A stretch of 64,000 nt of DNA from Haematobacter massiliensis (GTDB lineage Bacteria; Pseudomonadota; Alphaproteobacteria; Rhodobacterales; Rhodobacteraceae), in NCBI RefSeq assembly GCF_000740795.1, contig NZ_JGYG01000014.1, forward strand, positions 1-64,000, written 5' to 3'. This document shows, piece by piece, positions 34,901 to 42,702 of the stretch (positions are counted from its first letter, which is position 1; every line of letters starts with the position of its first letter). Under the pieces are notes generated by a model. That model made no database searches. It saw nothing but the letters and a program-made list of their open reading frames with translations, and was not told where the DNA came from. The translations under genes and the position numbers were made by a program.

Positions 34901-35379
34901 ATGCCCCCAAGGCAGAAAGCACGGACAAGGCGGAAGCTGATCTGGTGTCTCTCCGCGGCGCGCTCGCCCGCTCCTCCGCTGCTGCGGAGCAAACGGTGCT
35001 GATGCCCGGCCCCACGGGCGAATCGAACCGACTGGAGCTCCGCCCGCGCGCGCCGATCCTGTGCCTCGGTCCCGGTGATGCGACGCGCGCGGCTCAGAAA
35101 GCGGCGGTGGAGCGCCTGGGGGGCAGAGCGGTTGTCGTCAGCGGATGCCTGCCGCCTGAAGAGCTCGCCACGGTGACAGGTGTCTCCGGCGCGCTCTGGT
35201 GGGGCGACGCGGCAGCGGGGCGCGCCTATGCCAAGGCGCTCGCCGCGCGCAAGGGGCAGATCCTGCCACTCATCACCGCTGAGCCGGACGCAGGTCACGT
35301 GCTGATCGAACGTCATCTCTGCGTGGACACCACCGCCTCGGGGGGCAATGCGGCCCTCCTCGCGGACGTCGGAGAATAA
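31930..35379 (+). CDS. putA: Bifunctional proline dehydrogenase / P5C dehydrogenase
   Basis: A 1149-residue enzyme oxidising proline to glutamate. The FAD proline dehydrogenase barrel occupies about 130-450 (FTYSYDMLGEAARTEADARRY, VRLVKGAYWDSEIK, FAGHNAHTVAAI, EFQRLHGMGERLHD). The P5C dehydrogenase occupies about 520-990, with catalytic Cys803 in SAGQRCSALR and Glu769 in AETGGLNAMI. A C-terminal tail of about 140 residues resembles the inactive ALDH-like domain of long PutAs. It lacks the N-terminal ribbon-helix-helix of E. coli PutA, so it is not an autorepressor; control falls to PutR. Confidence 0.96.
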   Translation: MRDAAMDLQTKIEALTLAEEGPLLARLMEEARLSLEDRARIAAKGAELVRLIRESAKPGLMEVFLAEYGLSTDEGISLMCLAEALLRVPDAETMDALIEDKIAPSDWGRHLGKSSSSLVNASTWALMLTGRVLDEREPGVAGHLRAAVRRLGEPVIRGAVSRAMKEMGRQFVLGETIQSAMKRAEGMEAKGFTYSYDMLGEAARTEADARRYHLDYSRAITAIAAAAKGSDIRSNPGISVKFSALHPRYEVAKRARVMEELVPRVRALAGLARAANLGFNVDAEEADRLTLSLEVIEAVLSDPALKGWDGFGVVVQAYGKRCGPVIDRLYDLATRLDRRIMVRLVKGAYWDSEIKRAQVLGLDGFPVFTRKAATDVSYIANARKLLGMTDRIYPQFAGHNAHTVAAILDMATDPDAFEFQRLHGMGERLHDIVHEREGTRCRIYAPVGAHRDLLAYLVRRLLENGANSSFVNQIVDEDVPAETVAADPFAEVEAHLADAHNPVIRRPAEIFEPSRGNSRGFDLTDAGDLSRIEAARTPFLTARFRAAPILARPVTGGEPVTVMNPADPADTVGTAVFATPDQVEAALEAARPWNAPAADRAAVLKQAADLYEADFGRLFALLSREAGKTQADAVAELREAADFLRYYAEGATALPHPARGTFACISPWNFPLAIFTGQIAAALAAGNAVIAKPAEQTPLIAALAVELLLKAGVPATALQLLPGDGGVGARLTSDPRIDGVAFTGSTETALAIRKAMAEHLSPGAPLIAETGGLNAMIVDSTALPEQAVRDIVASAFQSAGQRCSALRCLYVQEDVAPSVTHMLFGAMDELALGNPWTLTTDIGPVIDAEAASGIAAHVARARSEGRLLKDVSAPGTGHFIAPAVIRVSSITDIGQEIFGPVLHLATFRAGEIDRVIDAINATGYGLTFGLHTRIDDRVQEVVERIHAGNIYVNRNQIGAVVGSQPFGGEGLSGTGPKAGGPNYLARFTLFDAPKAESTDKAEADLVSLRGALARSSAAAEQTVLMPGPTGESNRLELRPRAPILCLGPGDATRAAQKAAVERLGGRAVVVSGCLPPEELATVTGVSGALWWGDAAAGRAYAKALAARKGQILPLITAEPDAGHVLIERHLCVDTTASGGNAALLADVGE

Positions 35380-35454
35380 GCTTCGGGAGGGTGTGGAAAA
35401 GTTGTCTTTTGCCTCTGGACAGCCCCCGCACCCCCCGCTATACCGCCCCCGTGT

Positions 35455-35529
35455 TCCGGCGTAGCTCAGCGGTAGAGCAGTTGACTGTTAATCAATTGGT
35501 CGTAGGTTCGATCCCTACCGCCGGAGCCA
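35455..35529 (+). tRNA. tRNA-Asn (anticodon GTT)
   Basis: A 75-nt cloverleaf. Acceptor TCCGGCG with CGCCGGA then GCCA, D-arm GCTCAGCGGTAGAGC, anticodon stem GTTGA/TCAAT around loop CTGTTAA (anticodon GTT), T-arm GTAGG-TTCGATC-CCTAC. CCA is encoded. No partial second copy of its 3' end was noticed on the far side of the module downstream. Confidence 0.97.
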
Positions 35530-36446
35530 AAAAATCCTAGAAAAGCAAGGGCTTAGCGCTTGCCAGTCTCGTTGTGCAGTGTAGTGCTACGATACACTGT
35601 GGCAGGAATGTGCGCATCTCCGGTATCTCTTCGGCTTGCGTCATCCCATGGGCGACGAGGGACCATTGACGATGGCAGATACCGCTTCCCACTGACCGCC
35701 CTTTTCCCCGGCAGGACGACCAAGGCCAGGGCCTGGCCGGAGAAACGATAGACCGGTTAGGTCGATCAGGGACGGACCTTGCGTGCGAGGGGGACTCCGC
35801 TTCGGAGAGCCGGGACGCGGGCCGGTGATCAGCTACCGCTCAACTGGGTGACCCAGCTCTCGTGATTTGCGGCGAAATGAATCACCCGATGACAGCAACA
35901 CCACTGCGCAGCGCGGCACCGTCCATTAGACGCAAAATTCGCGTGGATAGCCAGCTGAACGGGTAGAAGGGGTCGGGCTTGACCAAGCCTCATTCGTCAT
36001 CCGCCCGCAATCTCGCATACGCCACGACAGAACGCGACGCGAGGACCACGCATAGAGGATTTCAATCCTTCTGACGGAGCGGAACGTTCCAGAACCGTTG
36101 TCCTGTTGGGGATATTTTGCCTTGGCGATTCGGGCTCGAGCATCGGGAATGGCCGCGGCGCTCGCCGAAATTGCGTTTGGAAAGCCTGTCGGGGGAGCTA
36201 TCAGGACCAGTAAATTTACGATGGACCGTTCTCTAAATTAGAACGATTAATTAATAGGCATAAAATTGGCTTGAACTCTGAGAAGAAGTTCGAAGGACAC
36301 AATTAATAAACTGTATTTATTATATTTTATGTTTTGCTTACGCCTTGTTCGTTTCAAGGCGCAATTCGTGCCCAATCTTTAATCGATATCTCAAAAGTCG
36401 ATTCTTCATTGCGCGATCAGGCCAAAAATCAGCATAGTCAGGGCTG
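35530..36446. other. Gene-poor, partly AT-rich spacer
   Basis: About 0.9 kb without a convincing gene. The last 250 bp (36200-36345) are strongly AT-rich, with runs such as TTAATTAATAG and TTTATTATATTTTATG, unlike the rest of the window. It lies directly after tRNA-Asn and leads into the riboswitch-controlled module. It probably contains the promoter of that module and may be a relic of an insertion event. Confidence 0.6.
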
Positions 36447-36486
36447 CGAGTAGAAGCAGTCGGGGCACAGTCCTGGACATTGCTCG
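36447..36486 (+). ncRNA. NMT1-motif / xanthine-I riboswitch, copy A
   Basis: The closing helix is CGAG (36447-36450) with CTCG (36483-36486). The 5' core is TAGAAGCAGT, the inner hairpin CGGGG with TCCTG around a 5-nt loop, and the 3' core GACATTG. The cores are identical to copy B 2.9 kb downstream, while the helices differ with compensation. The core fits my memory of the NMT1 motif, shown to bind xanthine and urate and typically found before NMT1-like transporter genes, as here. TCGAC (36484-36488) can alternatively pair with GTCGA (36499-36503), which would exclude the closing helix and border the ribosome binding site of the next frame. Confidence 0.8.
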
Positions 36487-36515
36487 ACGGAACCCTCTGT
36501 CGAACGGAAACGCAA

Positions 36516-36698
36516 ATGCTTGCCAACACACTGATAGAAGACGGAAATATTTCAGACATTGCGCAGCACCGCTGCTTTGGATGCTTGACCGGCGGCGACG
36601 CGGGAAAGCGAGCCTGCGCAATACGCCAGCTTTTCGCCGAGGGAATTGCGGCTGAGCGGCTCGAAACCCTCGCTGCGTCCTCCAAAACCGCACACTGA
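36516..36698 (+). CDS. Small cysteine-containing protein at head of transporter operon
   Basis: A 60-codon frame starting MLANTLIEDGNISDIAQHRCFGCLTGG and ending 17 bp before the solute-binding protein gene. It lies 30 nt after riboswitch copy A, and GGAAA sits 5 nt before the ATG. It has three cysteines (CFGC and a later C), recalling small CxxC...C proteins of Rhodobacterales. The sequence LANTLIEDGNISDIAQHRCF...RQLF also faintly recalls a degraded AraC-type helix-turn-helix. It could be a real small protein, a leader peptide or a regulator relic. Confidence 0.4.
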   Translation: MLANTLIEDGNISDIAQHRCFGCLTGGDAGKRACAIRQLFAEGIAAERLETLAASSKTAH

Positions 36699-36715
36699 TC
36701 CAGAAAGGTTCCGCC

Positions 36716-37705
36716 ATGCTGCACCAACGGCTCGCCGCCTCTGCCCTGGCCATTGCCGCTTTCTCCGCCCCGGCCGTCGCGGCCGACAAGGTCACCTTCC
36801 AGCTCGACTGGCTGCCGGGCGGCGACAAGGCGCCGATCTATGTCTGTATCCACGAAGGCATCTGCGAGGCGGCGGGCCTGGAGGTCACCATTTCCTCCGG
36901 GCGCGGCTCCACCGACGCCATCTCGCGGCTCTCCGCCGGCAGTTCGGATATCGGTGTGTCCGATATCGGCGCGCTGATGGCCGCCCGGGCGCAGGAAAAG
37001 GTAGGCGTAACCGCCGTTCTCTCGATCTTCAACAAGGGGCCGCACGCTTTCTACGCCGTGAAGGGCACGGGGTTCGACAACGTGGCCGACGTGAAGGGCA
37101 AGACCATCGCCACCTCCCCCTTTACCTCCTCCAACGTATTCCTGCCGCTGGTCCTGAAAGACGCGGGCATCGCGGAAAGCGACGTCGAGGTGATCAAGGC
37201 CGATCCTGGTGCCTTGGGGCCGATGCTGATGACCGGGCAGGTCGACGGCATCATCGCCTGGATGACCGACCGCACGCGCTATACCAACCAGGGCACGGAG
37301 GCCGGCAAGGAAATCGAGGTGATGCCGTGGTCGGCCGCGGGGCTGGATCTCTATTCCGCCGCGCTGATCGCGAATGACGAGTTCCTCGCCAACCGGCCGG
37401 ATGTCGCCAAGCGCTTCGTCGAAGCCTATCGGAAGTCGATGCAGTTCGCCCATGACAACCCGGAGAAGGCGGCGGATGCGGTCACCTCGATGGTGGCGGA
37501 ACTCGGCGCCGAGGATGTGCTCGGATCGCTGAAGGACATGCTGCCGCTGGTCTTCAACGAGGTCACCGAGAAGGATGGCCTGGGCAGCTTCGAGCCCGGC
37601 CGGCTTGCCGCGACCTGGGCGCGCGTCTCGGCGGCGCAGGGTATCGATCCGTCGGGCTACGACGTGGAGACGACCGTCACCCGCAGCCTCATCCCGGAGA
37701 TGTGA
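36716..37705 (+). CDS. NMT1/THI5-like ABC transporter solute-binding protein
   Basis: A 329-residue periplasmic protein with signal peptide MLHQRLAASALAIAAFSAPAVA and the NMT1/THI5-like fold: VTFQLDWLPGGDKAPIYVCIHEGICEAAGLEVTISSGRGSTDAISRLSAGSSDIGVSDIGAL, then DVKGKTIATSPFTSSNVFLPLVL. Relatives bind pyrimidine precursors, riboflavin, sulfonates or nucleobases; they are not thiamine synthases. The upstream NMT1-motif RNA points to a purine-type ligand. First large gene of a three-part ABC operon. Confidence 0.9.
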   Translation: MLHQRLAASALAIAAFSAPAVAADKVTFQLDWLPGGDKAPIYVCIHEGICEAAGLEVTISSGRGSTDAISRLSAGSSDIGVSDIGALMAARAQEKVGVTAVLSIFNKGPHAFYAVKGTGFDNVADVKGKTIATSPFTSSNVFLPLVLKDAGIAESDVEVIKADPGALGPMLMTGQVDGIIAWMTDRTRYTNQGTEAGKEIEVMPWSAAGLDLYSAALIANDEFLANRPDVAKRFVEAYRKSMQFAHDNPEKAADAVTSMVAELGAEDVLGSLKDMLPLVFNEVTEKDGLGSFEPGRLAATWARVSAAQGIDPSGYDVETTVTRSLIPEM

Positions 37706-37708
37706 GCC

Positions 37709-38485
37709 ATGCAGCCGCCCCCAGCCATCCGCTTCTCCCATGCGGGCCAGGTGTTCGAAACCCGCTCCGGCCGGACCGAAGCGCTGCGCGATGTGAGCTT
37801 CGAGGTCGCCCGGCACGAGTTCCTCGCCGTGCTTGGCCCCTCGGGCTGCGGCAAGTCCACACTTCTGCGGATGGTCGCGGGGCTGCTGCCGCCGACGCGG
37901 GGCCAGGTCGAGGTGTTCGGCCTGCCCGTGACGGGGCCGCGCGAGGACATCGGTATCGTCTTCCAGAAACCCACGCTCCTGCCCTGGGCCACGGTCGAGG
38001 ACAACGTGACCTTCCCCGTCCGTCACAAGCGCGGCCGGGTCAGCGCGGAGGATCGCGACCGGGCACAAGATCTGCTGCGGATGGTTGGCCTGGAGGGCTT
38101 CGGCAAGCGCCTGCCCGACGAGCTTTCGGGCGGGATGCAGCAGCGCGTCGGCATCGCGCGGGCGCTGCACCTCGATCCTGACATCCTGCTGATGGACGAG
38201 CCCTTCTCGGCGCTGGACGCGCTGACGCGCGAGGTGATGGGGTTCGACCTGCTCGACATCTTCGCAAAGCGTCCCAAGACGGTGATGTTCATTACCCACT
38301 CCGTGAATGAGGCAGCCCTGCTTGCTGACCGCGTGCTGGTGATGACCGGCCGTCCTGGCACCGTGCTGACGGAAATCCCCGTGCCCGCGGGCCGTCCGCG
38401 GGGGCCGGAAACCATGAAGGAGCCTGCGATCCATGACCTCGCTTCCCATCTTCGCGACCTCCTCCTCCGGCGCGAGGCCGCCTGA
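37709..38485 (+). CDS. ABC transporter ATPase
   Basis: A 258-residue SsuB/TauB-type ATPase with Walker A GPSGCGKST, signature LSGGMQQRVGIARAL, Walker B DILLMDEPFSALD and the switch FITHSVNEA. It follows the solute-binding protein by 3 bp and precedes the permease by 1 bp, so the three are one importer. QKPTLLPWATVEDNV is the usual Q-loop of nitrate/sulfonate/NMT1-type importers. Confidence 0.93.
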   Translation: MQPPPAIRFSHAGQVFETRSGRTEALRDVSFEVARHEFLAVLGPSGCGKSTLLRMVAGLLPPTRGQVEVFGLPVTGPREDIGIVFQKPTLLPWATVEDNVTFPVRHKRGRVSAEDRDRAQDLLRMVGLEGFGKRLPDELSGGMQQRVGIARALHLDPDILLMDEPFSALDALTREVMGFDLLDIFAKRPKTVMFITHSVNEAALLADRVLVMTGRPGTVLTEIPVPAGRPRGPETMKEPAIHDLASHLRDLLLRREAA

Positions 38486-38486
38486 G

Positions 38487-39299
38487 ATGGAGAGTGCAGA
38501 CGTCCTCCGCCCTTCCGACCGCATGGCCTGGCTGCGGCAGATCGGCCGTCTCCCCGGCCTGGCCACGCTGGCCACGCTGATCGGCACGGTGCTGCTCTGG
38601 GAGGCGATGGTGCACTTGTTCACCATCCCGTCCTACCTGCTCCCCGCGCCCTCAACGATCCTGGCCGCCTTTCCCGCCATCGGCGCCGAGCGCTGGATGC
38701 AGCATATCTGGTCAACGCTGCGCGTCGCGCTTCTGGGCTTCGGGCTGTCGATCGTCGTGGCGATCCCGCTCGCGGTTGTGATGATGCGCTCGCCCTTCCT
38801 GTCCAGAACGCTCTACCCGTTGCTGGTGGTGGTCCAGTCGACACCCGTGGTTGCCATTGCGCCGATCATCATCGTGGCTCTTGGCGCAGGCGATGCGCCG
38901 CGCATCGTCATCACCACGCTGATCACTTTCTTCCCGCTGGTGGTCTCCACCGCCACCGGCCTCGCCGCCACCCCGCCGGAGCTGATAGAGCTGTCCCGCT
39001 CCCTGCGTGCGCCCGCCTTCCGCGAGATGACGCAGATCCGGCTGCCCTTTGCCGTGCCCTACATCTTCTCGGCGCTGAAGATCTCCATCACGCTGGCCGT
39101 CATCGGTGCCGTGGTGGCGGAGTTCTGCGCCTCCAACGCCGGGGTCGGCTATTTCATCCAGTTCTCGACCTCGCTCTTCAAGCTGCCGCAGGCCTGGGCC
39201 GGCCTCTTCGTACTGGCGGCGATGTCGCTGATCCTGTTCCAGGCCGTCGTCCTGGCACAGCGGCTCCTGTTCCCCTGGAGCCTTCCCAAGCAACGCTGA
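38487..39299 (+). CDS. ABC transporter permease
   Basis: A 270-residue inner-membrane protein with about six hydrophobic segments and the binding-protein-dependent transport loop ELIELSRSLRAPAFREMTQIRLPFAVPYIFSALKISITLAVIGAVVAE. It belongs to the SsuC/TauC/NMT1-associated group. I use the ATG at 38487 just after the ATPase stop; an earlier in-frame ATG at 38433 would overlap the ATPase by 53 bp. It completes the importer with the two genes before it. Confidence 0.92.
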   Translation: MESADVLRPSDRMAWLRQIGRLPGLATLATLIGTVLLWEAMVHLFTIPSYLLPAPSTILAAFPAIGAERWMQHIWSTLRVALLGFGLSIVVAIPLAVVMMRSPFLSRTLYPLLVVVQSTPVVAIAPIIIVALGAGDAPRIVITTLITFFPLVVSTATGLAATPPELIELSRSLRAPAFREMTQIRLPFAVPYIFSALKISITLAVIGAVVAEFCASNAGVGYFIQFSTSLFKLPQAWAGLFVLAAMSLILFQAVVLAQRLLFPWSLPKQR

Positions 39300-39310
39300 T
39301 CTTTTCCCCC

Positions 39311-39347
39311 GGAGTAGAAGCAGTCGGGTTCGCCCGGACATTGCTCC
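39311..39347 (+). ncRNA. NMT1-motif / xanthine-I riboswitch, copy B
   Basis: The closing helix is GGAG (39311-39314) with CTCC (39344-39347). The core is TAGAAGCAGT, the inner hairpin CGGG-TTCG-CCCG, and the 3' core GACATTG. The closing-helix pair G-C replaces the C-G of copy A, a compensatory change. The strand CTCCT (39344-39348) can instead pair perfectly with AGGAG (39356-39360), the ribosome binding site 6 nt before the dioxygenase start, so ligand binding would be expected to expose it and turn translation on. The direction is deduced from pairing only. Confidence 0.82.
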
Positions 39348-39366
39348 TCAATCTCAGGAGACTGCA

Positions 39367-40356
39367 ATGACCCAACAAGATTACGCTCTGGCCGAGCTGA
39401 ACAAGGAAACCACCATCGGCGGCGAAGGGACCACCGTCGAACGCGCGGTGCCCGTCATCGACCTCTCGGACTTCGAGAACCGCAAGCAGGAGATCGCCGA
39501 CGCGCTCTGGGCGGCCTCCACCGACATCGGCTTCTTCCAGGTCACCAACCACGGCATCCCGCAGGAGGATATCGACGCGGCCTTCGACAATGCCTGGGAC
39601 TTCTTCAACCTGCCGACCGAGGTGAAGGCGCAATACCCGATGCCGAAGGGCACCAACGCCGGCTGGGAGTTCAAGGCGCAGGTCCGCCCCTCCACCGGTA
39701 CGCCGGACAACAAGGAGAGCTATCAGGTCACGCGGCCGCTGATGGAGGGCAAGTGGCCGAGCGAGGAGGAGCTTCCCGGCTTCAAGGAACGCGCGCTCCG
39801 CTTCGAGGCGCAGAACTGGCATCTCGGGATGCGCATCCTCTCCTGCTTCGCGCTCAAGATGGGCTTTGAGGAGGATTTCTTCGCCAAGGCGCATGACCCG
39901 GCTTCCGACCAGTACCAGTCCACCCTCCGCATGATCCACTACATGTCGATGGAAGACGCCAAGCCGGAAGACTTCGCCGCATGGCGCGCGGGCGCGCATT
40001 CCGACTTCGACTGCCTCACCATCCTGCACCAGAAGGAAGGCGAGGGCGGGCTTCAGGTCTGCCCGGGCAAGGACGCGGCCTCCGGCGCCTGGACCGACGT
40101 GCCGCCGCGCAAGGGCCACATCACCTGCAACATCGGCGACATGCTGATGCGCTGGTCGGACGATCAGCTGCAGTCGACGCTGCACCGCGTGCGGATGCCG
40201 CGGGAGGGCGAATACATGGGCCGCCGCCTTTCGCTGCCCTTCTTCTGCCAGGCGAACCGCGATGCCCTTATGGTCGGCCCGCTCGGCAAATACGAGCCCA
40301 TGACCGCGGGTGACTATCTGACCATGCGCATCAACGCGAACTTCGCCAAGGTATGA
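39367..40356 (+). CDS. 2-oxoglutarate-Fe(II) dioxygenase, IPNS-like
   Basis: A 329-residue soluble oxygenase of the isopenicillin N synthase-like (DIOX) class. The N-terminal region has VPVIDLSDFENRKQEIADALWAASTDIGFFQVTNHGIP. The iron triad is His and Asp in AHSDFDCLTILHQ and His in QSTLHRVRMP, with the oxoglutarate-binding RRLSLPFF. Fungal thymine-7-hydroxylase belongs to this class. It sits under riboswitch copy B and next to a nucleobase-type importer and a cytosine-deaminase-like enzyme, so oxidation of a purine or other nucleobase is my inference; substrate not shown. Confidence 0.88.
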   Translation: MTQQDYALAELNKETTIGGEGTTVERAVPVIDLSDFENRKQEIADALWAASTDIGFFQVTNHGIPQEDIDAAFDNAWDFFNLPTEVKAQYPMPKGTNAGWEFKAQVRPSTGTPDNKESYQVTRPLMEGKWPSEEELPGFKERALRFEAQNWHLGMRILSCFALKMGFEEDFFAKAHDPASDQYQSTLRMIHYMSMEDAKPEDFAAWRAGAHSDFDCLTILHQKEGEGGLQVCPGKDAASGAWTDVPPRKGHITCNIGDMLMRWSDDQLQSTLHRVRMPREGEYMGRRLSLPFFCQANRDALMVGPLGKYEPMTAGDYLTMRINANFAKV

Positions 40357-40366
40357 GGCGTTGAGC

Positions 40367-41344
40367 ATGGGCCTTTCGGGTGACATTGTAAGGACGATCG
40401 AACCCGGAAGGACCATGCTGCACGGACGCGCCCTGCGCTACATCGACGAAGTTGCCCGGCAGGGGTCCATCCGCCGGGCCGCTAAGGAGTTGAATGTCGC
40501 CGCCTCCGCCATCAACCGCCACGTGATCGAGCTGGAGACCGAGCTTGGCGCGCCGATCTTCGAGCGGTTGCCGCGCGGGTTGAAGCTCACTTCGACAGGT
40601 GAGCTGCTCGTCGCCCATATCCGTGAGACGCTGCGCGCGCATGACCGGATGCGATCGCAGATCCAGTCCCTGCGGGGTCTGAGCCGGGGCGAGGTTTCTC
40701 TTGCCACAATGGCAACGCTGGCGGCCGGGCGACTGGCCGATGTGGTCGCCGCCTTCCGCGAAACGCATCCGCTTGTAAGCGTCAGGATCATGGTCGGCGA
40801 CCGGGCGGGGGTGACGGAGATGATCACGTCCGGCCGGGCGGAAATCGCGCTGGCCTACAACCTGCCGCAGGACAGCCGGATTCAGCGGGCGGCGGAGTTT
40901 CAGCACCGCCTCGGCGCGGTGATCGCGAAGGAGCACCCGCTGGCGTTGAAGAAATCGGTGCGCGTGGCTGATTGCCTTGTCTATCCGCTGGTACTGGCCG
41001 ACAAGAGTTCCTCGCTGCGGGACCTCGTCGAGAAACTCGCGCCCGCGAATGTCGAGGTGGTGCCCGCGGTCGAAACCAACTCCATGGAGCTGATGAAGCG
41101 CCTCGTGCGCCAGTCGCAGCATGTCACCTTTCTGAACCGCGTCGATGTGGATCAGGAGTTGCGCGACGGCGATCTCGCTTTCCTGCCGCTGAGCGGTGCG
41201 GCGGGTAGGCAGCGGGTCAGCCTCGTGCACCGCTCCCGCGGTTCCCTCTCGCCTGCGGCGAGCCGCTTCATGCAATTCGTGATGGACCACTTCGGAACCT
41301 CGAATGAGGCGAAGCGGCTCCCTGAGGGACAGGAAGATCCATGA
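40367..41344 (+). CDS. LysR-family regulator
   Basis: A 325-residue regulator with an N-terminal helix-turn-helix (RALRYIDEVARQGSIRRAAKELNVAASAINRHVIELETELGAPIFERLPRGLKLTSTGELL) and a LysR effector domain (GEVSLATMATLAAGRLADVVAAFRETHPLVSVRIMVGDRAGVTEMI). Two starts are possible: the ATG at 40367 (GAGG 8 nt upstream) used here, or the ATG at 40415 (GGAAGG 3 nt upstream), which gives a more typical N-terminus. It is 10 bp after the dioxygenase and overlaps the amidohydrolase (ATGA), so it is part of this operon. Confidence 0.9.
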   Translation: MGLSGDIVRTIEPGRTMLHGRALRYIDEVARQGSIRRAAKELNVAASAINRHVIELETELGAPIFERLPRGLKLTSTGELLVAHIRETLRAHDRMRSQIQSLRGLSRGEVSLATMATLAAGRLADVVAAFRETHPLVSVRIMVGDRAGVTEMITSGRAEIALAYNLPQDSRIQRAAEFQHRLGAVIAKEHPLALKKSVRVADCLVYPLVLADKSSSLRDLVEKLAPANVEVVPAVETNSMELMKRLVRQSQHVTFLNRVDVDQELRDGDLAFLPLSGAAGRQRVSLVHRSRGSLSPAASRFMQFVMDHFGTSNEAKRLPEGQEDP

Positions 41345-42702
41345 TACAGGACTTTGGCCGGGCAGGTCCGGCGCAGATGCTCACCGGGCGCGGCGCGCTT
41401 CTCCTCTCCCGCGCCCAGGTACCGGTCTCCTTGCTTGCCGACGGCGCGCCTGCCGGGGCACCCTTGGCGCCGGATGGCACGGTGTCAGTCGACATCCGCC
41501 TCACCGACGGACTGGTCGCCGCAGTTCAGGCGCCCGGCGCCACGGAGGGTCCGGCCTGCGATCTGGGGGGGCGCCAGGTCTGGCCGATGCTCATCGACAT
41601 GCACGCGCATCTCGACAAGGCGCACGTCCTCGGCCGCGCACCGGACTCGGGGGGAACTCACGCGGGCGCGCGGGAGGCCACGACCCGCGACCGGCTCGCT
41701 CACTGGACGCGCGAAGACCTGATGCGGCGGATGGATTTCGCCCTTGCCTGCGCCGAGGGGTACGGCACGGCCGCCATTCGCACGCATCTGGACAGCCATG
41801 AGGGCCAGGCGGAGACGACATGGGGTGCCTTTGACGCAATGCGCGCCCGCTGGGCGGGGCGGGTGGAATTGCAGGGTGTGGCGCTGGTGCCGCTCGATGC
41901 CTACGGAACCGGCCATGGCGCGCGGCTCGCGGACCTCGTGGCGGCGAATGGCGGGCTTCTCGGCGGCGTCACACGGGTGAGTGGCGGCACCCATGGCGGT
42001 GGCCTTGACGACATCGACGCGCTGCTCGATCGCCTCTTTGCCCTCGCGCGGGAGCGGGATCTGGATGTCGATCTGCATGTCGATGAGGCGGCGGTCGCCT
42101 CTGCGTTGCCGCATGTGGCGCGCGCCGTGCTGCGGCACGGTTACGAGGGGCGGGTGACCTGCGGTCATTGCTGCTCGCTCGCGCTCCTGCCAGAGGAGGA
42201 GGCTGCCGCGGTAATCGCCCTCCTGGCCGAGGCCGGGGTCGCGCTGGTGACGCTGCCGACGGTAAATATGTATCTTCAGGACCGCACACCTGGGCGCACG
42301 CCGCGTTGGCGCGGGGTCACGCCGGTGCAGGAACTGCGCGCGGCGGGTGTGCCGGTGGCTGTCGCCGGGGACAACACCCGCGACCCGTTCCATGCCTATG
42401 GCGACGGCGACATGCTCGACACCTGGCGGCAGGCGGTACGTGTGCTGCATCTCGACCACCCCTTCGCCGATGCGCCCGCGCTGGCAGGGGCCGTGCCGGC
42501 AGCGATCACCGGCTTCGCCGCTGGGACCATTCGCGTTGGCCGTCCCGCTGATCTGATGATCTTCGAGGCCTGGTCCCTCGACCAGATCATCGCGCGCCCG
42601 CAATCGGACAGGCTGCTGGTTCGCCGCGGTGCGCTATCTGCCGCGCGACCACCCTCCTACGCGGCCCTCGCGCCGCATGAAGAACCCGCCCCTGTGGGTT
42701 GA
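41341..42702 (+). CDS. Cytosine-deaminase-like amidohydrolase
   Basis: A 453-residue TIM-barrel metal hydrolase. Metal ligands are visible in MHAHLDKAH, DLDVDLHVDEA, GHCCSLAL and AVAGDNTRDPFHAYGDGDMLDTW, the order found in CodA-like deaminases. These remove an amino group from cytosine, isoguanine, creatinine or related rings. It is translationally coupled to the LysR gene and lies last in the dioxygenase operon. Given the xanthine-type riboswitches, a purine substrate such as an oxidised guanine is plausible but unproven. Confidence 0.85.
   Translation: MIQDFGRAGPAQMLTGRGALLLSRAQVPVSLLADGAPAGAPLAPDGTVSVDIRLTDGLVAAVQAPGATEGPACDLGGRQVWPMLIDMHAHLDKAHVLGRAPDSGGTHAGAREATTRDRLAHWTREDLMRRMDFALACAEGYGTAAIRTHLDSHEGQAETTWGAFDAMRARWAGRVELQGVALVPLDAYGTGHGARLADLVAANGGLLGGVTRVSGGTHGGGLDDIDALLDRLFALARERDLDVDLHVDEAAVASALPHVARAVLRHGYEGRVTCGHCCSLALLPEEEAAAVIALLAEAGVALVTLPTVNMYLQDRTPGRTPRWRGVTPVQELRAAGVPVAVAGDNTRDPFHAYGDGDMLDTWRQAVRVLHLDHPFADAPALAGAVPAAITGFAAGTIRVGRPADLMIFEAWSLDQIIARPQSDRLLVRRGALSAARPPSYAALAPHEEPAPVG

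Follow-up and report, generated by a model that had tools for sequence, protein, structure and literature searches.

The window (the whole 64,000-nucleotide stretch of Haematobacter massiliensis DNA analysed here) contains two xanthine-I riboswitch aptamers, referred to as copy A and copy B, which lie 2864 bases apart and flank a transporter operon. The order is copy A, a 60-aa open reading frame, an NMT1/TauA-like gene, an ATPase, a permease, copy B, a dioxygenase, a LysR regulator and a cytosine deaminase. The features used below are the following (P1, closing helix of the aptamer; P2, its hairpin; SD, Shine-Dalgarno sequence).

36443–36490, + strand: xanthine-I aptamer, copy A (cmscan 37.4 bits)
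36483–36503, + strand: hairpin TCGACGG...CTGTCGA, sharing the P1 3′ strand of copy A (sequence; related hairpins in relatives)
36516–36698, + strand: small open reading frame, 60 aa, family HxCxxCL...CA (conserved place in relatives)
36716–37705, + strand: NMT1/TauA-like ABC solute-binding protein (Pfam NMT1, 8.3e-38)
37709–38485, + strand: ABC transporter ATPase (Pfam)
38433–39299 (start may be 38487), + strand: ABC transporter permease (Pfam), with its stop 11 bases 5′ of copy B P1
39307–39351, + strand: xanthine-I (NMT1, RF03054) riboswitch aptamer, copy B (cmscan 38.8 bits, gathering threshold 36)
39311–39314, + strand: copy B P1 5′ strand GGAG (sequence, model alignment)
U39315-G39343 and A39316-U39342, + strand: probable copy B P1 extension, by analogy with a crystal structure (PMC8266621)
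39325–39336, + strand: copy B P2 hairpin CGGG-UUCG-CCCG (sequence, folding)
39339–39344, + strand: copy B aptamer segment CATTGC, complementary to GCAATG at 39364–39369
39344–39348, + strand: copy B P1 3′ strand CTCC plus T, the candidate anti-SD strand (sequence; comparison of direct leaders)
39356–39360, + strand: dioxygenase SD AGGAG (sequence)
39361–39369, + strand: ACTGCA plus ATG, partly occluded, like the SD, in the folds predicted without ligand
39367–40356, + strand: 2-oxoglutarate/Fe(II) dioxygenase, 329 aa (Pfam DIOX_N and 2OG-FeII_Oxy)

By sequence, the best solved chains for the dioxygenase are 9ovh and the thymine dioxygenase 5c3p. The cytosine deaminase found nearby (within 39367–42702) scores 576 bits at a cut-off of 403. 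Given this deaminase and the likeness to thymine dioxygenase, the operon may also process pyrimidine bases. Pfam and NCBIfam searches gave no match for the 60-aa open reading frame; it was matched in 3 of the 30 genomes searched, each time just 3′ of a xanthine aptamer. An HxCxxC...CA frame lies between aptamer and TauA-like gene in 13 records (window included, all selected by that motif) from Rhizobium/Agrobacterium, Paracoccus and Roseobacter kin. The aptamer spacing in relatives is also similar, at 2867–2868 bases in rhizobial L031, L061 and L075, 2867 in G940 and 2891 in G414. As judged from these sequences, the two-riboswitch transporter operon is a conserved arrangement.

Both copies exceed the RF03054 gathering threshold of 36 bits (B, 38.8; A, 37.4), and alignment to the model identified J1 (GAAGC), the 3′ side (GGACAUUGC), P1 and P2 of the consensus in each of them. 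The neighbouring genes fit the class, with Pfam DIOX_N, 2OG-FeII_Oxy and NMT1 downstream of the aptamers. No other RF03054 matches occur in the 4.13 Mb genome. A search of 35300–40500 at E ≤ 0.1 returned a tRNA and the two RF03054 matches, and no three-stem purine aptamer of the xanthine-II type. We infer that xanthine (or urate) is the ligand of copy B. The aptamer class is already known; the novelty lies in the expression platform and the sign predicted for it.

Copy B is intercistronic, since the permease stop codon lies only 11 bases before its P1. Its closing helix is formed by GGAG (39311–39314) and CTCC (39344–39347), and that of copy A by CGAG (36447–36450) and CTCG (36483–36486). The first-pass annotation had pointed out that both partners of one closing pair differ between the copies while pairing is kept. 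This is confirmed; a single pair is weak when taken alone, and within the family the closing pair co-varies, being standard in 181 of 215 aptamers, where permutation gave 80.0 on average and never more than 104 (2000 permutations, relatedness uncorrected). The same annotation had claimed a perfect pairing of CTCCT with the dioxygenase SD, and here too the coordinates and the complement hold: CTCCT (39344–39348) and AGGAG (39356–39360) are exact complements, separated from the ATG at 39367 by a six-base spacer (39361–39366). The gap between P1 and SD is only 8 bases.

The overlap extends to the start codon itself. The ATG lies inside GCAATG (39364–39369), the exact complement of the aptamer segment CATTGC (39339–39344), and this pairing has unconstrained probabilities of 0.58, 0.77 and 0.91 in three sequence contexts. 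Judging by our own analogy with the crystal numbering in PMC8266621, as far as that source gives it, the segment probably comprises ligand-pocket and P1 bases. The P1 fold and the start-pairing fold would then be incompatible at the pocket as well. The copy B core GCAGT (39320–39324) can also pair with ACTGC (39361–39365). This helix is present in the minimum-energy fold of 39300–39400, yet its probability in the three contexts is 0.04–0.24. As a conserved part it is not supported, as the partner is changed in L043 (GCCGTC) and L084 (GCGTTC) and GACTGC is kept.

Folding of progressively longer copy B transcripts showed the aptamer as the minimum-energy fold for ends at 39347–39357, and no longer so for ends at 39360 or later. 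In transcripts ending at 39360–39366, the SD is predicted to pair with pyrimidines near 39303–39308, not with CTCC, so a P1-independent partner of the SD exists. From 39369 on, the SD and start are taken up by pairing with the CAUUGC strand and the bases that follow. The SD is unpaired with a probability of 0.25–0.30 when unconstrained and 0.58–0.59 with P1 and P2 formed (three contexts), which means that the model keeps it partly paired even with P1 in place. Placing the copy A closing pair in copy B removes the modelled change (0.54 vs 0.57). Relative to the free ensemble, the state with P1 and P2 costs 2.1 to 4.2 kcal/mol, and a stricter aptamer state 8 to 10 kcal/mol. A computed ligand titration on the stricter state gave no switching up to 1 mM; it was set aside, as the non-canonical pocket is beyond what the energy model can score, and it lends no support either. 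The region 39300–39400 as a whole was no more stable than shuffled sequences (z 0.43).

Relatives were collected by a pattern scan of genome contigs, which gave at least 119 stretches, and by whole-genome Rfam searches, with matches in 15/394 genomes for the family, 5/149 for the order, 2/385 for the class and 17/398 for the phylum; these samples are not disjoint, and the genome of the window is counted in every tally. From 173 records (window included) we extracted 221 candidate aptamers, of which 6 were dropped before counting and 215 retained. N-terminal motifs served to type the downstream genes; frame, start codon and SD served to assign the starts, with the same rule for all. A dioxygenase aptamer is referred to as direct if it lies within 60 nt of the dioxygenase start (n = 57) and as distant if it lies further away (n = 40). 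Five of the 40 distant aptamers share their downstream gene with a direct aptamer. No aptamer was extracted from L049, L072 and L133, the last of which has an Rfam match that the extraction rule missed. Among the pattern matches listed are one in a cyanobacterium (L039) and two in Oscillospiraceae (L049 and L072), all three probably due to chance because P1 is incomplete.

The two groups of dioxygenase leaders differ strongly in the P1 strand. The aptamer 3′ end is CTCC in 55 of the 57 direct leaders vs 3 of the 40 distant ones, and two of these three are among the five that share their gene with a direct aptamer. A Watson-Crick complement of the last four aptamer bases is found at −20 to −3 in 52/57 direct and 4/40 distant leaders. 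The SD motif GGAG itself is similarly frequent before the start in both groups (53/57 and 33/40), whereas CTCC is not, so it is the P1 strand, far more than the SD, that sets them apart. As compared to control gene starts, GGAG is enriched (53/56 direct dioxygenase starts vs 137/280 controls). The distance from P1 to the start in direct leaders has a median of 40 nt (range 16–54).

The closing pair shows the same division. It is G-C in 55 direct leaders, G-T in one and A-T in one, with no C-G; the distant group has T-A 19, T-G 7, A-T 5, C-G 3, C-C 3, C-A 2 and A-G 1, with no G-C. As C-G would be equally stable in P1, the G-C orientation points to the SD and not to P1 stability alone. In 28 of the 29 records that contain a direct dioxygenase aptamer together with another one, the direct aptamer has G-C; among the other aptamers of those records there is a single G-C, at the deaminase aptamer of L045.

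The influence of relatedness was assessed on a tree of 89 of the 97 dioxygenase rows, leaving out three called proteins shorter than 250 aa and repeats of one protein. The direct/distant label switches 10 times on this tree, at least 9 of them on well supported branches, and 8 times after removal of two tandem-aptamer rows whose records also have a direct aptamer. In the seven independent pairs, the closing pair follows the label in six, opposes it in none and is equal in one (sign test, p 0.031). Scoring the 3′ base alone gave 5, 0 and 2 (p 0.0625). The tree test gives modest support, restricted by the small number of independent pairs, to a link between closing pair and placement.

Co-variation beyond CTCC:GGAG was examined by permuting partners (5000 permutations) in the 53 direct dioxygenase leaders that have a usable SD, where the four bases following CTCC pair with those preceding GGAG in excess of the permuted level; 35 of these leaders are less than 75% alike. 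In these 35 leaders, the four bases after CTCC form 66 pairs (13, 21, 16 and 16 by position) with the bases before GGAG vs 47.0 expected, and with the constant N:G pair added the count is 101 vs 82.0 (p about 2e-4). By itself, the base next to CTCC was not significant (13 vs 10.5, p 0.20; 35 leaders), and the extension bases of 10 deaminase leaders showed no co-variation (28 vs 25.4, p 0.18). Duplex energies gave a similar picture. In direct dioxygenase leaders, own partners give stronger duplexes (−9.73 kcal/mol) than swapped partners do (−8.78 kcal/mol; p 4e-3). The own duplexes are also stronger than those with a sample of 150 control gene starts (p 4.8e-5), among which their median rank is only 0.34, with 4/56 in the best 5%. 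Direct deaminase duplexes are stronger than the control ones (p 5.4e-5; median rank 0.11), though no stronger than swapped ones (p 0.30), and distant dioxygenase duplexes were better than neither controls nor swapped duplexes.

GAGCA is found at the start region of 18/27 direct deaminases vs 13/280 controls, and GAGCAATG, the complement of CATTGCTC, at 7/26 TauA-like starts located 61–140 nt away vs 0/280 controls. These seven cases (L006, L040, L081, L089, L102, L105 and L109) count as about one, since they are enterobacterial and closely alike. In the enterobacterial L006 and L081 leaders (GCTCAGC...GCTGAGC) and in the Pseudomonas putida leader L053 (CTCTGGC...GCCAGAGGAG), the P1 3′ strand can pair with an element lying further downstream. 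The aptamer core also varies, with GCGTTC...GGAAATTGC in L146, GGGTCATTGC in L123 and GCGGCAG...GGCATTGC in L010. The L146 type is the form that was crystallised with xanthine (PMC8266621, as far as that source was available). Going by their core sequences, the L123 and L010 variants may differ in ligand preference.

The predicted effect of P1 on the SD was then compared between leader types, with P1 forced in the model. In direct dioxygenase leaders SD accessibility rises from 0.26 to 0.46, a gain of 0.19 vs 0.05 in shuffled leaders (p 1.2e-5); by leader, 31 of the 57 are ON-like, 2 OFF-like and 24 neutral. Direct deaminase leaders change from 0.20 to 0.40 (16 ON-like, 3 OFF-like and 8 neutral of 27), and their shuffled counterparts behave alike (0.24 to 0.44). 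For long leaders of 61–140 nt the model gave 6 ON-like, 5 OFF-like and 15 neutral of 26 dioxygenases, and 4 ON-like, 1 OFF-like and 22 neutral of 27 TauA-like genes; the mean gain of the latter is small but above that of shuffles (0.03 vs −0.02, p 8.4e-4). The ON reading thus does not clearly carry over to long leaders. The betaproteobacterial leaders sampled, some of them with aptamer pairs in the opposed arrangement reported for Hydrogenophaga intermedia, whose own sequence was looked for and not found, showed mixed, mostly small changes.

Copy A was modelled in the same way. Its hairpin lies directly 5′ of the 60-aa open reading frame, and related hairpins are found in rhizobial and Paracoccus relatives; in L073 bases are altered with pairing kept, and in several relatives the hairpin reaches the SD of the small open reading frame. 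For leaders of the copy A type the accessibility model gave 7 ON-like and 3 OFF-like of 13 (2 of the 13 have no SD by the rule used). Copy A of the window is not ON-like, with an SD accessibility of 0.69 when free and 0.49 with P1. The copy B arrangement is therefore not clearly shown in copy A, and we confine the ON reading to copy B and its kin instead of extending it to the whole class.

P1 and the SD-sequestering stem of copy B are mutually exclusive, as the first-pass annotation had proposed; this is well supported by the comparison of leaders (CTCC in 55/57 vs 3/40) and more weakly by folding. On sequence and modelling, we consider copy B probably to be an intercistronic xanthine-I riboswitch that acts as a translational ON switch. 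In the ligand-free state, the aptamer 3′ strand (CAUUGCUCCU) would leave P1 and the pocket and pair with the dioxygenase SD and start, so that the 30S subunit would bind poorly. With xanthine (or urate) bound, P1 and the pocket would retain the strand, leaving the SD free and the dioxygenase open to translation. Disruption of P1 in a relative abolished xanthine binding, according to the available text of PMC7373994. If binding needs P1, the bound RNA cannot spend CTCC on the SD, which is the ground for the ON sign. We infer both this sign and its size for copy B. Of the earlier claim of a translational ON switch, the part concerning copy B is favoured by its architecture and folding; the OFF sign published for the class (PMC7373994, as far as available), the 24 of 57 neutral leaders and the copy A model speak against it.

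The opposite sign would follow if a ligand-stabilised aptamer ending at −20 hindered the 30S subunit sterically, with CTCC:GGAG too weak or too slow to matter. The class was described as OFF, "likely by regulating translation initiation" (PMC7373994, available text), and in copy B a mere 8 bases separate P1 from the SD. Such a block leaves the CTCC preference near the start (55/57 vs 3/40) and the co-variation past CTCC unexplained, and the distance between P1 and start in direct leaders (median 40 nt, range 16–54) makes it less likely; we regard it as unlikely for copy B. Translation of the permease offers another explanation, in which terminating ribosomes melt the aptamer, CTCC:GGAG mainly curbs independent initiation and xanthine has a minor effect, giving mixed control by translational coupling. 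Terminating ribosomes may indeed act on the aptamer, since the permease stop is 11 bases from P1 (39297–39316) and long frames are common upstream: an open reading frame of at least 200 codons ends close before 37 of the 57 direct dioxygenase aptamers, and in 17 of those 37 the frame stops no more than 11 nt from the aptamer or slightly inside it. The other 20 leaders have no such frame, the same CTCC occurs in all but two of the 57, and the entire aptamer core is conserved. Coupling as the main control is, in our view, rather improbable.

The complementarity could also be trivial and without function, a matter of chance and composition, as CTC is near-invariant in P1 and SDs are rich in GAG. 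A CTC:GAG match is in fact built in, and the deaminase leaders, for which chance may hold, have no leader-specific signal. For dioxygenase leaders we rejected chance CTC/GAG complementarity on the basis of the co-variation, the accessibility gain, which differs from that of shuffled leaders, and the P1 3′ base, which differs between direct and distant leaders; the GGAG frequency differs from that of the 280 control gene starts as well. We judge this explanation very improbable.

Copy B, with its favoured ON reading, can be compared to known systems. The xanthine-I (NMT1) class as described in the available text of PMC7373994 has the same core, the same P1/P2 layout and the same neighbours (dioxygenase and NMT1/TauA-like transporter) as copy B. 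It differs in the published sign, which is OFF from one H. intermedia fusion, whereas the P1 3′ strand of copy B is an anti-SD strand that predicts ON. The OFF sign is based on a Hydrogenophaga intermedia lacZ fusion in E. coli BW25113, in which the wild type was compared with one pocket mutant in LB and M9 media; the methods, in the text available, state no added xanthine (PMC7373994). The same source calls sequestration of the ribosome binding site common in the class (PMC7373994; Yu and Breaker, 2020, available parts). Both ON and OFF signs may be present within xanthine-I. The xanthine-II riboswitch, a variant of the guanine riboswitch, is likewise a xanthine sensor associated with dioxygenase and purine-catabolism genes, and its architecture was judged consistent with ON, as we predict for copy B; it differs by a three-stem junction aptamer of unrelated fold, with overlapping terminator stems in some examples (PMC9295807, as far as available).

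A search of the open-access literature by titles and beginnings of abstracts, with subscription papers mostly outside it, gave no report of an ON xanthine-I switch or of a P1 strand acting as anti-SD; a search of the same kind gave none of a bacterial xanthine dioxygenase of this family. The add adenine riboswitch is a translational ON switch in which the ligand keeps P1 and thereby releases the SD from a competing helix. Copy B resembles it in the proposed mechanism only, as aptamer, ligand and genes differ.

With an ON sign for copy B and its kin, the physiology would be an ordinary substrate induction of a catabolic operon, the sign of the xanthine-I class would become a sharp question, and a single closing base pair would be able to re-wire an aptamer class. 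We give an even chance to the broader reading that directly placed xanthine-I riboswitches are mostly ON throughout Proteobacteria, with a 3′ strand, CAUUGCUC[C], that doubles as half of the pocket and as anti-SD/anti-start (complement GGAGCAAUG), a closing pair tuned to the SD, and a class-wide OFF label that is wrong for them. Were it true, direct members of the class would induce, not repress, the uptake and oxidation of purine bases.
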